Virus record (IMG/VR): IMGVR_UViG_3300020467_000014
Location: 1-39,678 of that record
Reading direction: 5' to 3' (one strand)
Length of the DNA stretch: 39,678 bases
DNA from: a virus
Of the stretch, positions 4,247 through 9,126 are shown in pieces. The position numbers and the translations under genes were made by a program. Numbering within the stretch: position 1 is the stretch's first letter; the number at the start of each line of letters is the position of its first letter. The notes beneath the pieces were generated by a model that was given only the letters and a program-made list of their open reading frames with translations, made no database searches and was not told where the DNA came from.

Positions 4247-5143
4247 ATGGCACAGAGGGCAGAAGCATTTAGATCTGGCAGATTTTATTTACCAACGGTA
4301 GAATTGACTGATACGTCAACGAAGTTTGGTAATATAACTCCAGCATTTAATAATAGTTATGATGTAAGTATAAATTTCAAGAAACCACAGAGTGATTTGA
4401 ATGCATTTATAAATCGACATGGATTTTATGATCAGAATGGAGGACCTAGCTCACCTTACAATGCAGGTTCTTATCTAGCACTTTTTTGTTCAGAAGCAGT
4501 TTTACCAGGTTCAGATATACAAGCAGCACAAGTTGACGGTCTTAGACAAGGAGTATCACAAAAATATGCAACCTTTAGAAGATTTCCTGATATTCTATTG
4601 ACATATTATTTACAAACAGATTATTATACAAATGATGTGTTCAATGCATGGATGGAATACATATCACCTACCAGTGGTAGAGAAACTGCAGCGTTCAAGA
4701 GAATGAAATATCCTGATACCTATAAATGTGATATGGAGATCACAGCGTTCAGTAGAGATATAAATGATGAGTTTGCAAAACTCAATACTACAAATAGATT
4801 CAATAATCAACTACCCAGTAGTATCACATACAAAATACAAAATGCGTTTCCAAGTAGTATTGTCGCTGCTCCACTTGCATATGGAAGAGCAGAATTGATC
4901 AAGACTACTATCACATTTAAATATGATCAATACTTTATTGATAGAACATCAAGAGTTGACAATGCATTCTCTGAGTCAAAAGAATTTGAACGTATATATG
5001 GGGCAACTGCTCCTAGGAATGATTTTGAATATGGTAGAGGAGGAACTCGTGCTTCAACTGATAGTGAGGAAAGAGATTTTGACGATCCTCAGTTTGGTGC
5101 TGGTGATAGCTTTATTGTTGGAGATCCTGACAGAGGATGGTAA
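4247..5143 (+). CDS. 54: Baseplate tail-tube initiator gp54
   Basis: A 298-residue protein, close to the 320 residues of T4 gp54, which caps the baseplate with gp48 and starts polymerisation of the gp19 tube. The body looks like the tube fold: LPGSDIQAAQVDGLRQGVSQ, RFPDILLTYYLQTDYYTNDV, FNAWMEYISP, and a final strand set IVAAPLAYGRAELIKTTITF then KYDQYFI, which parallels the T4 gp54 end (GCIPISVSAPELSYDGDNQI, TTFDVTFAYRVM). The last 50 residues are acidic and likely flexible. The ATG follows the divergent palindrome with no Shine-Dalgarno sequence, so its message would be almost leaderless unless transcription starts inside gp4. gp54 versus another tube-fold protein is decided by context. Confidence 0.75.
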   Translation: MAQRAEAFRSGRFYLPTVELTDTSTKFGNITPAFNNSYDVSINFKKPQSDLNAFINRHGFYDQNGGPSSPYNAGSYLALFCSEAVLPGSDIQAAQVDGLRQGVSQKYATFRRFPDILLTYYLQTDYYTNDVFNAWMEYISPTSGRETAAFKRMKYPDTYKCDMEITAFSRDINDEFAKLNTTNRFNNQLPSSITYKIQNAFPSSIVAAPLAYGRAELIKTTITFKYDQYFIDRTSRVDNAFSESKEFERIYGATAPRNDFEYGRGGTRASTDSEERDFDDPQFGAGDSFIVGDPDRGW

Positions 5144-5182: not shown

Positions 5183-5911
5183 ATGCCTTTACCAAAGGTC
5201 GTTGCACCTACGTTTGAATTGCAACTTATATCAACAGGTAAGAAAGTAAAGTATAGACCTTTTCTTGTCAAAGAGGAGAAAGTTCTACTTATAGCACTTG
5301 AGAGTGGTAATGACGCTGACATCACTGCTACATTGAAAAGTGTATTGAAATCATGTATTCTCACTCGTGGGATAGATGTTGAAAAATTACCTAGTTTTGA
5401 ACTTGAATACTTATTTTTGAATATCAGAGGTAAATCAGTAGGTGAATCTGTTGAATTACTTGTGACATGTCAAGATGATAATGAGACTAAAGTACCTCTT
5501 ACAATAAAATTGTCTGAGATCAAACTTGAAGTCCCTGAAGGTCACACTGACATGATCAAAGTTGATAATGATATCAATATTAAGATGAAGTATCCATCAA
5601 TGCAACAGTTTATGGATAATAATTTCATCGCATCTGATTTGAGTGGGTCTAATAGGATTGATAAAGCGTTTGACGCTGTTGTTGATTGTATAGACACTAT
5701 TTTTACTGTAGATGAAGCGTGGTCTTCCGAGGATTGTTCTAAAAAGGAACTTCTCAAATTTATTGAGCAATTGAACTCACAACAATTTACCTTGATTGAG
5801 GAATTCTTCGCTACTATGCCAAAATTACAATATAAAGGTACAGTGAAAAACCCAAATACTAAGAAAGAGTCAGAAGTAGTAATTGAGGGTTTATCAAATT
5901 TTTTCGCATAA
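5183..5911 (+). CDS. 26: Baseplate hub subunit / assembly protein gp26
   Basis: A 242-residue protein, T4 gp26 being 208. It begins LPKVVAPTFELQLISTGKKV then KYRPFLVKEEKVLLIALES, the hallmark of the T4 baseplate (gp26) family, followed by a Cys-containing segment SCILTRGIDVEKLPSFELEY and an acidic C-terminus. In T4 it is needed to assemble the central hub. The ATG is 18 bases after a late promoter box. The stop TAA shares its last base with the next ATG (TAATG), and six bases upstream of that overlap is a canonical -1 slippery heptamer, so a longer gp26-gp51 fusion may also be made. It precedes two tape-measure-like genes, the position occupied by tail assembly chaperones in other phages. Confidence 0.87.
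   Translation: MPLPKVVAPTFELQLISTGKKVKYRPFLVKEEKVLLIALESGNDADITATLKSVLKSCILTRGIDVEKLPSFELEYLFLNIRGKSVGESVELLVTCQDDNETKVPLTIKLSEIKLEVPEGHTDMIKVDNDINIKMKYPSMQQFMDNNFIASDLSGSNRIDKAFDAVVDCIDTIFTVDEAWSSEDCSKKELLKFIEQLNSQQFTLIEEFFATMPKLQYKGTVKNPNTKKESEVVIEGLSNFFA
5899..5905 (+). promoter_or_regulatory. Candidate -1 frameshift heptamer T TTT TTC
   Basis: At the end of gp26 the codons read TCA AAT TTT TTC GCA TAA. The seven bases 5899-5905 are T TTT TTC in the X_XXY_YYZ register. Slipping back one base re-pairs both Phe tRNAs on TTT TTT and continues CGC ATA ATG into the frame of the 65-residue ORF at 5911, giving a predicted fusion of about 308 residues. Position and register are exact; use of the site is inferred. 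Confidence 0.55.
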
Positions 5912-6108
5912 TGCTATATCATACCACTATTGATTCTGTATTGGAGACAAATTTTTCTCTAATGCAACATCATAAATGGTCTGTAAGTGATATAGAAAAT
6001 ATGATTCCTTGGGAAAAAGAGGTATATGTAAATTACCTCATCAAATTCCTTGAGAAACAAAAACTAGAAGCACAACAAGCAAAGGCAGCAGATGCAAACG
6101 CCTGGTAG
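5911..6108 (+). CDS. Small gp51-like baseplate hub assembly ORF
   Basis: A 65-residue protein with a motif reading HHKWSVSDIENMIPWEKEVY then VNYLIKFLEKQKLEAQQAKA. The WSVxDIxNMIPWExEVY pattern is typical of the small second ORF after gp26 in T4-like phages, and of the C-terminal part of tail assembly chaperones (short proteins listing an 'entry helix, IPWE, helix'). It overlaps gp26 by one base (TAATG) and the following gene by 17 bases. It may be translated alone, or as the tail of a gp26 fusion through the slippery site at 5899. It is much shorter than T4 gp51 (249 residues), so I do not assign the symbol firmly. Confidence 0.7.
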   Translation: MLYHTTIDSVLETNFSLMQHHKWSVSDIENMIPWEKEVYVNYLIKFLEKQKLEAQQAKAADANAW

Positions 6109-7477
6109 ACAAGTAGCACCCCAAACTCCTATGATTCCTATGGAGCGTAGGATGGATTTGGCTTATGATAGATTGTTACAGAGGGCGACAGAAGCAACAC
6201 AAAATTTAGAACAACCACAAACAAGAGTTTTAGGTCGTGTCATCTCTCAATTAGAGTCGATGAATAACACGATGAGAAGTATACAGGATCAGATAAGAGA
6301 AGACGTAAGAGCGAAAAGAAGATATTATAGAGAGGAAGCAAGACTACTAAGAAAAGATAATCAAAACCTTTCTGATGTAAAAACGAGTGTATTATCAGGT
6401 TTGAGAAAAAGTCTTGGTGGTGCTGCAGCTCTGACAGGTGCTGCACAACTTGGTGCTGGTAATATTGGTGGTGGATTACAAAGTTTAGGGTTGGCAGGTG
6501 CTTTGATGTCTCCTGAGATAGTAGAATTTCTAACAGGATCGGTGGTAAATGTCCTTGCACTCAAAGGTCTGATAGGTGGTGGTAAGGGTGCTGCTGTGAG
6601 TGGAGTTGGAAGAAATGTCGCTGGTGCATCAAAATTAAAAAATCCACTCTTGATTACTGCTGCACTCGCTGCCAGTCTCTTGATACCATCTCTTGCAAAT
6701 GCAGGTCAAGGTGGTGATAGAAGAAGACAGGACTTAGTAAGAAAAGAACTTGAAGGTGAACAAACAATCAACAAACCTGATGTGAATAGATTTAGATCAC
6801 TATTGGATAGGTTTGACAGTATATTGTCAGGTATAACACTTGATAAAGAAAAAGAAAAGGGGCAAGTAGATCCAGATAAATTAGAGGGTGTAAAAGTCAA
6901 TCAAATAGAGGTTAAGCAAAAAGAAGTTCAGGACATAAATGATGCAGACATAGCAGCACTGAACACTGTATTACCAAATAAGTCTCTCGTACCAAAAAAT
7001 GAAGATAAAAAGACTGACAAAGATCTTACAGCGTTTGTTACTACTAATATTGGCGAAACTATATTCAACGAAGAAGTAAATGAAGGTGACGTAAATGTTG
7101 ATGCAACATCTAAAAATAATGTCAATGTTGAGGGAGACCAAATTCTAATTACACAAAATCAAAATATTGAGGGTGCAGAAGAAATAACTGAATTGATTAC
7201 TCCTCCAGATAATATTGAAGAAAACAACAAACAATTGAATGAAAAATTAGATATTGCTAATCTTAGTAAAGAGATAAAACCAAGATCTGAAGTAAGTAAT
7301 AATTTGTACAATATTGATATGACTCAGGATGATTCACCAAAAACTATATCAGGATTCACAGGTCTTACAGCGACACCTGATTCTGTATTTGTAAGCACTA
7401 AATTTTCTAGTGGTGGTGGTTTATTTGACAGATTTGAAGCAGCGTCATCTCTTAGAACATATGGAGCATACTCATGA
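6092..7477 (+). CDS. Tape-measure-like hub/tail structural protein A
   Basis: A 461-residue protein. Residues 18-95 are charged and helical, with coiled-coil character (RVISQLESMNNTMRSIQDQI then REDVRAKRRYYREEARLLRK). Residues 100-205 are Gly/Ala-rich and hydrophobic (AAALTGAAQLGAGNIGGG, LLITAALAASLLIPSLANAG), resembling the membrane-active segment of tape measure proteins. The remainder is acidic and Asn-rich (VNVDATSKNNVNVEGDQI). No specific family is recognised. It lies between the gp26/gp51-like pair and gp27, where T4 has gp28 and gp29, of which gp29 sets tail length. Its start overlaps the previous gene by 17 bases and its stop overlaps the next start by ATGA. A tape measure or hub role is inference from composition and position. 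Confidence 0.6.
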   Translation: MQTPGRQVAPQTPMIPMERRMDLAYDRLLQRATEATQNLEQPQTRVLGRVISQLESMNNTMRSIQDQIREDVRAKRRYYREEARLLRKDNQNLSDVKTSVLSGLRKSLGGAAALTGAAQLGAGNIGGGLQSLGLAGALMSPEIVEFLTGSVVNVLALKGLIGGGKGAAVSGVGRNVAGASKLKNPLLITAALAASLLIPSLANAGQGGDRRRQDLVRKELEGEQTINKPDVNRFRSLLDRFDSILSGITLDKEKEKGQVDPDKLEGVKVNQIEVKQKEVQDINDADIAALNTVLPNKSLVPKNEDKKTDKDLTAFVTTNIGETIFNEEVNEGDVNVDATSKNNVNVEGDQILITQNQNIEGAEEITELITPPDNIEENNKQLNEKLDIANLSKEIKPRSEVSNNLYNIDMTQDDSPKTISGFTGLTATPDSVFVSTKFSSGGGLFDRFEAASSLRTYGAYS

Positions 7478-9126
7478 TAGAGAGATCGCTCGGTGTAATA
7501 TCAAATCAAAATAGAAGAGTTAGTTTATCACTTAGAAACGATCTAAGAAATAGTTTTAGAGTTGAGAGAATATTTGAGAGAAATTCTCTTTCAATCAAAA
7601 GTAAACTCGTAGAAGAAAGAGGTCGTACACTAAAAGCACTAGCGTTACGCAGTAGGGAACAAGAAAAAGATAAAAGAGGAGGCGTTGGCGGTGCATTAGG
7701 TATTCTAGGTGGCAGTGCACTTGGTAGAAGATTTTTTGGTAGAGGTGGTCAAGTAGGATTACTCCGTAAATTCCCTAAGGTTCCAAGATCACCCTCATCA
7801 TTACTTAGAATGCAAAGAGGAACCTCTACTTTATCTAGGGTAGGTAGAGTAGGTAGACTTGGAAGAGTGGGACCTCTTGCTGTTGTGGGTGCAGGTTTAG
7901 ATTTTGCAGGTAGAAGAGCAGAAGGACAAACTAATCTTCAAGCAGGTGTAGGTGCAGCAGGTGGATTGGGTGGTGCACTTGCAGGTGCTAAGTATGGTGC
8001 AATACTTGGCACTGCGGTGGGAGGACCTATAGGAACTGTAATTGGTGGTATAGGTGGCAGTATTATTGGTGGACTTGCAGGTGGTAAGTTAGCAGATTTA
8101 TTTACTGGTGCAGATAGGAGAAGACGTTTTGAAGAACAAAGAGTATTGATATCCACTCAAAAATCATTATTTTCAAATGCACTTGACGATTTAGAGAGAG
8201 TATTGAATAAATTAGAGGATACTTCACTCGTTAGACTAAAAAAGGATGATGATCGTGGTTTATTTAAAAGAGATAGATTTGACTTTCCACTACCTAAATT
8301 ACCTACATCAAAACCTTGGTATGATACAACTGCAGCTAAAATTATTGGATATGGTTTGCTCTTAGCAGGTACATTGGTTTTAGCAGGTCCCTCTGGAGAA
8401 GAAGCGATACCAGCAGCAGGTCTCTTGAATACATTGAATCAGACCAGATTAGGTTCTATACTTATAAAGAAAATCCCTGCACTTACAAAGTTTTGGAAGA
8501 AGGTATCAAAGGGACAAACTTTTGCTGATGAGTTAGTGCCTGGCGTTGACATACCTGGTATATCAGCGAAAGGTATAAGAATAAGAGCAGAAGCATTATT
8601 GAAAAAAATTAATCCAAACATAAAATTTGATAATGTGCCAAAGAAAGAACCTTCTCTAAAACAATTACTCAAGAAAGAAAAGCAATTACAAGAAAAACTT
8701 TTTAATATAATAAAGAATGCATCCCCCGAAAAAGCACGGGAGATACTACAAAAATTCATAAAAGAAGGTAAACTACCTAGAACACCAAGAAATATAAAGA
8801 AGAAAGGTGATGTAAAAGTAAAAGTGGATAGAGCATTTCCGTCTGGTTCACCAGATATGACTGGTACAAATAGTAATCCTCTTGGTGGTGGTGGAACTCC
8901 ACTATCAATGAATGAACTTGAACCACCTAACAATGATTTTATAGCACTCGCACCAGAGGGAATTGAAAATAATATATTTCTTATGAATAATAATATTACT
9001 AATAATACTACACAACCTATCGTAAATGAAGGTGGTGGAAACACAGTTGTCGTGGGTGGTAGTGGAATAAATACTGTCGATCTCATGTATCTCAACGCTG
9101 CAGCTCAGCAATCTATGACAGCATGA
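7474..9126 (+). CDS. Tape-measure-like hub/tail structural protein B
   Basis: A 550-residue protein. The N-terminus is basic and helical (SLRNDLRNSFRVERIFERNS), followed by Arg/Gly-rich sequence (RVGRVGRLGRVGPLAVVGAG) and a long glycine-zipper region at about residues 160-210 (GAAGGLGGALAGAKYGAILG, GGIGGSIIGGLAGGKLADLF). A second hydrophobic segment lies near residue 290 (IIGYGLLLAGTLVLAG), then a Lys-rich coiled region and an Asn/Thr-rich tail. Glycine zippers of this type are common in tape measures and in proteins that enter membranes at infection. It is joined by ATGA overlaps to the genes on each side, ending at gp27. With protein A it probably replaces gp28/gp29; the family is not recognised directly. 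Confidence 0.58.
   Translation: MIERSLGVISNQNRRVSLSLRNDLRNSFRVERIFERNSLSIKSKLVEERGRTLKALALRSREQEKDKRGGVGGALGILGGSALGRRFFGRGGQVGLLRKFPKVPRSPSSLLRMQRGTSTLSRVGRVGRLGRVGPLAVVGAGLDFAGRRAEGQTNLQAGVGAAGGLGGALAGAKYGAILGTAVGGPIGTVIGGIGGSIIGGLAGGKLADLFTGADRRRRFEEQRVLISTQKSLFSNALDDLERVLNKLEDTSLVRLKKDDDRGLFKRDRFDFPLPKLPTSKPWYDTTAAKIIGYGLLLAGTLVLAGPSGEEAIPAAGLLNTLNQTRLGSILIKKIPALTKFWKKVSKGQTFADELVPGVDIPGISAKGIRIRAEALLKKINPNIKFDNVPKKEPSLKQLLKKEKQLQEKLFNIIKNASPEKAREILQKFIKEGKLPRTPRNIKKKGDVKVKVDRAFPSGSPDMTGTNSNPLGGGGTPLSMNELEPPNNDFIALAPEGIENNIFLMNNNITNNTTQPIVNEGGGNTVVVGGSGINTVDLMYLNAAAQQSMTA

Follow-up and report, generated by a model that had tools for sequence, protein, structure and literature searches.

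A slippery heptamer conserved at the end of gp26 points to a frameshifted tail assembly chaperone in T4-like phages

The gp26 gene of the window (the whole stretch of DNA that was analyzed, a 39,678-base virus record, not a complete genome, of a marine T4-like phage) very probably encodes a tail assembly chaperone pair of the G/GT type, composed of gp26 itself and a 308-residue gp26-51 protein that would be produced by -1 frameshifting. An earlier note, made from the window alone, had proposed gp26/gp51 as a T4-family version of the G/GT system, and the proposal gained support from the following observations: (i) a slippery heptamer that is invariant at the end of gp26, (ii) the absence of start codons from the downstream domain in many relatives, (iii) the number of gp26-family genes per genome and (iv) the fold of a gp26 model.

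Gene order and reading frames at the end of gp26

The window contains a T4-like tail operon with a single PF12322 gene, gp26, which scored 225.8 bits against the curated Pfam cut-off of 24.5 for this family (T4_baseplate / gp26; cf. Table 1). Its last codons are AAT|TTT|TTC|GCA|TAA, and the bases TTTTTTC within them form an exact X_XXY_YYZ heptamer, T_TTT_TTC, in the zero frame. Past the heptamer, the -1 frame runs through CGC, ATA and ATG into a 65-codon ORF, so that both the register and the uninterrupted run described in the earlier note were confirmed by the bases themselves. In the predicted fusion, the extension is attached after Phe241, and the residues at the junction read ...SNFF|R, then IMLYHTTIDSVLETNF... 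The 65-residue ORF matched the last half only of phrog_634, a family named 'baseplate hub assembly catalyst'.

The gp26/gp51 pair is flanked by a tail-tube-like and a tape-measure-like gene, one further gene being placed before the latter. The earlier note had spoken of tape-measure-like genes downstream of the pair; this held for the gene at 7474-9126, which matched tape-measure families over part of the protein, whereas the intervening one (6092-7477, 461 aa) had no PHROG match and only a sub-threshold Pfam match to DUF7605. Successive tail genes were also seen to overlap by a few bases (6092-6108, 7474-7477, 9123-9126), and these serial small overlaps suggest translational coupling along the operon.

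Table 1. Features around the gp26/gp51 junction of the window
Feature	Position	Strand	Evidence
Tail-tube-like gene, upstream of gp26	4247..5143	+	phrog_45 tail tube, E 4e-26
gp26, short tail assembly chaperone (G-like), 242 aa	5183..5911	+	PF12322 E 6.8e-67; phrog_150 E 1.4e-73
Shine-Dalgarno-like GAGGG, 9 nt 5' of heptamer; possible clade-limited stimulator	5885..5889	+	
Slippery heptamer T_TTT_TTC	5899..5905	+	in-register TTTTTT in 333/333 non-Ackermannviridae relatives
-1 frame extension, T-like domain	5905..6108	+	homologous to C-terminal ~50 residues of T4 gp51
TAATG stop/start overlap, gp26 / annotated-style gp51 ORF	5909..5913	+	sequence
gp51-like ORF, expected gene-caller annotation, 65 aa	5911..6108	+	phrog_634 residues 59-118 of 121, E 4e-23
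Predicted three-tier RNA stem, candidate stimulator	5914..5995	+	-28.5 kcal/mol, z -5.5; no compensatory changes across 33 clade members
Tape-measure-like gene, probable chaperone client	7474..9126	+	phrog_794 E 2.5e-11, phrog_167 E 1.9e-8, part of protein

Conservation of the heptamer and of the -1 domain

The register in one sequence is weak evidence, because the one-base overlap TAATG automatically forces the downstream ORF into the -1 frame. Within these genes, generic in-register XXXYYY strings occurred at 0.59% of codons, and in-register TTTTTT was found at 25 of the other 64,810 codons; given these frequencies, one site in the last few codons corresponds to a chance event of a few percent. 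We therefore relied on relatives of the window. From seven IMG/VR scans and selected annotated phages, 368 loci were assembled, the window included. The set used for the heptamer comprised 333 loci, i.e. those outside Ackermannviridae with a gp26 ORF that reaches its stop and a detected downstream domain, leaving out the pelagiphage-like contig L260, in which the gp26 frame is broken around 1988-2489, probably by a sequencing error or mutation. The tree and the codon counts were based on the 277 of these loci that represent non-redundant genes.

In-register TTTTTT was present at the gp26 end of all 333 loci, which is the invariance across homologues that the earlier note had proposed to look for by alignment. 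The preceding codon was AAT, AGT, GAT, TCT, GCT, ACT, CAT or CGT, with T always in the last position, the first full codon of the heptamer was always TTT, and the final one was TTC (238), TTA (23), TTT (15) or TTG (1), indicating that Phe can be replaced by Leu at this position with the slip site intact. Parsimony on the 277-gene tree yielded about 31 amino-acid changes in the preceding codon and no third-base change, compared with a median of 62 such changes across the columns of the gene. Two or fewer were counted in just two of 228 columns, namely the NNT and TTT columns of the heptamer. In the window's clade, the minimum of synonymous diversity in the gene also fell at the heptamer (0.18 vs a gene mean of 0.78). 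The heptamer and its register are thus conserved beyond amino-acid constraint and, as far as sequence comparison goes, this conservation makes the site far more than a chance occurrence. The earlier note had regarded homologues that keep both genes and lack the heptamer as the case against its proposal, and the comparison of homologues failed to refute it.

The domain downstream of gp26 behaved in a similar manner. Among 360 loci with a gp26 ORF reaching its stop, 356 had a detected gp51-like domain, invariably in the -1 frame and never in another one, while the other four were three contigs ending 19 to 48 bases past the gp26 stop and one T4-type phage. In 104 of the 277 genes, the extension had no ATG, GTG or TTG among its first 14 codons. 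Among phages of this kind, S-CAM8 and ACG-2014d have no gene annotated over the domain. In P-HM2 and RN05-S, the annotated gp51 has about 30 codons, yet the homology begins directly after gp26. These relatives are not accounted for by a small gene of its own. The missing start codon is also the reason why the domain is unannotated or fragmentary in many deposited phage genomes; in L081 (5896-6082 of KJ019036), L083, L084, L086, L089 and L095, for instance, it is either not annotated or present as a fragment of about 30 aa.

The Ackermannviridae have a weaker form of the site. The three genomes searched whole (W12-W14) contained one PF12322 gene each and no full heptamer; the domain is in the -1 frame, and the site consists of GTT, CTT or ATT followed by TTC or TTT (NTT_TTY), not of T_TTT_TTC. 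This pattern was noted at the gp26 3' ends of L092, L093, L094, L097, L272-L289, L374-L376 and L378. TAATG occurs in some Ackermannviridae, and Kuttervirus has TAATT in its place. In the same search, Stenotrophomonas phage Moby showed the canonical T_TTT_TTC.

According to the mechanism that we propose, most ribosomes would end gp26 at TAA. A minority would slip backward by a single base at T_TTT_TTC while Phe-tRNAs occupy the P and A sites, and would then read CGC-ATA-ATG to complete the 308-residue protein, which presumably corresponds to lambda gpGT and to the gp51 that T4 makes as one chain. If the parallel with lambda holds, the tape-measure protein would be coated by gp26, and the long form, being rarer, would bring in subunits of the tail tube.

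The overlapping ATG of the window would also permit a separate 65-residue protein (predicted N-terminus MLYHTT), which counts against a reading in which only the fusion is made. If no frameshift took place, gp51 would be a separate small protein translated by termination-reinitiation at TAATG, and the T run would merely encode a conserved Phe-Phe end of gp26. The TAATG itself and the overlaps of the neighboring genes (6092/6108, 7474/7477, 9123/9126), which make tight overlaps the rule here, fit this explanation; however, we consider it very unlikely, as 104 of 277 homologues conserve the -1 domain without a start codon in its first 14 codons, the T closing the preceding codon never varied despite 31 amino-acid changes, the second Phe may become Leu with the slip site kept, T4-type gp26 ends without a heptamer, and there is no Shine-Dalgarno-like tract just 5' of the window's ATG. 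It is also conceivable, though rather improbable in our opinion, that both processes operate in the window's clade, so that frameshifting would give the fusion and reinitiation at TAATG would release a free T-domain protein. In that clade, an ATG at or next to the gp26 stop has been retained, being the third codon of the extension in 62 of 67 genes and located at a TGATAATG in the other five, but this retention may reflect relatedness alone, and many other clades lost the ATG and kept the domain.

Alternatively, the shift could be supplied by RNA polymerase rather than by the ribosome. Bacterial polymerases are known to slip on homopolymers during transcription, and the run of six T's is conserved. 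Nevertheless, six T's are short for polymerase slippage, the -1 frame would need one inserted base in the transcript, and the constraint on codon register and on X_XXY_YYZ with a free Z base is a ribosomal signature, which leaves this explanation with hardly any credibility. Ribosomal frameshifting at T_TTT_TTC is the reading that we favor.

Elements that might stimulate slippage look clade-specific and should be treated as candidates only. The predicted RNA stem of the window starts 8 nt past the heptamer and, very stable as it is, lies within the first part of the gp51-like coding sequence. We do not claim it as a stimulator, as it failed the covariation count and the consensus fold of the clade had almost zero energy. 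A short hairpin, GCCCTC/GAGGGC, occupies roughly the same position in the P-HM2-like phages, of which 97% reached the stem-score threshold used; in the hairpin of the TTTTTTA clade, two pairs have changed in both arms. We rejected a downstream hairpin shared by all clades, since they have no pairing columns in common. All 67 genes of the window's clade use GAG for the Glu codon in the GAGGG tract, whereas the next Gly codon varies freely; other clades have a mixture of GAG and GAA at this Glu, and the idea that a Shine-Dalgarno-like stimulator is universal was given up for clades other than that of the window.

The fold of gp26 and its relation to T4 gp51

An AlphaFold model of gp26, built from 60 sequences, had a mean pLDDT of 86. 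Its comparison with solved structures (PDB) by Foldseek gave no significant E-value (best 0.7), and the top-ranked of 350,542 chains was the HK97 tail assembly chaperone. In VIA-align, the top four rows, all of them covering gp26 residues ~1-95, were 3fgx (Z 8.0), 2ob9 (HK97 gp13; Z 7.9), 3klu (YqbN; Z 7.4) and 5ir0 (Z 5.2), while the fifth row was an unrelated protein with Z 3.0; Z values of 7-8 are middling and can arise without kinship, although in this case phage chaperones make up several of the matched chains, well separated from the unrelated rows. 3fgx and YqbN are presumably prophage tail chaperones. Searching the solved structures by sequence returned noise only, for gp26 and for the extension. 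Over its N-terminal ~95 residues, the gp26 model matches established tail assembly chaperones (HK97 gp13, YqbN) in fold. The long form of a G/GT-type pair is the short form plus a C-terminal domain, with which the predicted 308-residue fusion is consistent, and T4 gp51 would be its hard-wired equivalent.

The T4-type phage UFV-AREG1 has a gp51 of 250 aa, residues 1-201 of which matched PF12322 end to end (E 3.5e-54), and the C-terminal part of which matched both phrog_634 and the cyanophage extension. Because the PF12322 domain and the extension domain are found in one protein, T4 gp51 is, judging by its sequence, a single-chain version of the predicted frameshift product. The number of genes followed the same division. 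All 13 heptamer genomes that were searched whole (G001-G003, W01-W09, W11) had one PF12322 gene each, and all six T4-type genomes (W10, W15-W19) had two, with no heptamer in gp26 of these six. The T4-type genes are either divergent or, in Pseudotevenvirus and Slopekvirus, adjacent in the order 51-26. In a paralogue tree that does not root the duplication and has some long T4-type branches, all frameshift-type gp26 proteins clustered with those of the Ackermannviridae (97/99), and the two T4-type paralogues lay outside this cluster. Ah1 and AS-szw, large Aeromonas phages of the Straboviridae, were placed with the frameshift group, so the T4-type duplication is probably derived.

We lean towards the reading that, among T4 relatives with a single copy, frameshifting is the usual and probably the older route to the long chaperone, that the separate gp51 of T4 is a derived duplication plus fusion, and that the free 'gp51' of cyanophages is mostly an annotation artefact. 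These single-copy relatives comprise cyanophages, a pelagiphage, a Sinorhizobium phage, large Aeromonas and Stenotrophomonas phages and, with the weaker NTT_TTY, the Ackermannviridae.

Previous reports and known systems

A frameshifted chaperone is a known kind of system, found in other phages and reported for T4 relatives. Vladimirov and co-workers reportedly identified T4-like chaperone genes in 2022. The present analysis adds how widely and how exactly the site is conserved, the missing starts, the copy-number pattern and an explanation of oddities noticed in 2010; these additions may overlap with the work of Vladimirov et al. 2022. A paper citing Vladimirov et al. 2022 mentions separate short and long genes in some T4-like phages, and a citing paper on phage Adele (PMC12846349) refers to poly-T slippery sequences as known in T4-like chaperone genes. 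A 2016 review described the G-T frameshift as conserved in long-tailed phages 'except T4'. A T4 review counted both gp26 and gp51 among the hub assembly chaperones, described gp51 as not being part of the particle, and also cited evidence that the hub contains gp26. Our reading would give the T4 'hub assembly catalyst' gp51 a concrete, testable role, namely that of a long tail assembly chaperone.

Locus L270, which we take to be Aeh1, has T_TTT_TTC followed by a -1 domain, and the extension is unannotated. Sullivan et al. 2010 (PMC3037559) reported that cyanophage gp51 lacks its N-terminal ~200 residues and that Aeh1 has no gp51. Both findings would be accounted for by frameshifting: cyanophage gp51 looks truncated because gp26 would supply the ~200 residues, and gp51 looked missing in Aeh1 because the -1 extension had not been annotated. 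By the same reasoning, a systematic annotation error is predicted in many marine phage genomes.

Compared with known systems, the window has the same gene order as lambda V-G-T-H (tube, chaperone, tape measure), whereas the slip heptamer of lambda G/GT differs from that of the window. HK97 gp13 and YqbN resemble gp26 in fold over its residues 1-95 or so (Z 7.4-7.9), but gp26 is about twice their length, with an extra C-terminal half, and has no sequence match to them. The chaperone genes of Vandenendeviridae and Andersonviridae, for which a GTTTTT frameshift motif has been described (phage Adele paper, PMC12846349), share with the window a poly-T slip site and an uninterrupted -1 extension ahead of the tape measure, though their site resembles the weaker NTT_TTY of Ackermannviridae and not the full T_TTT_TTC. 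Finally, T4 gp26 and gp51 (Straboviridae) belong to the same families as the proteins of the window, with a short gp26 and a long gp51 made of a gp26-family domain and a C-terminal domain; in T4-type phages, however, the two forms are encoded by separate genes and there is no heptamer, whereas the window seems to obtain both from one gene with a slip site.
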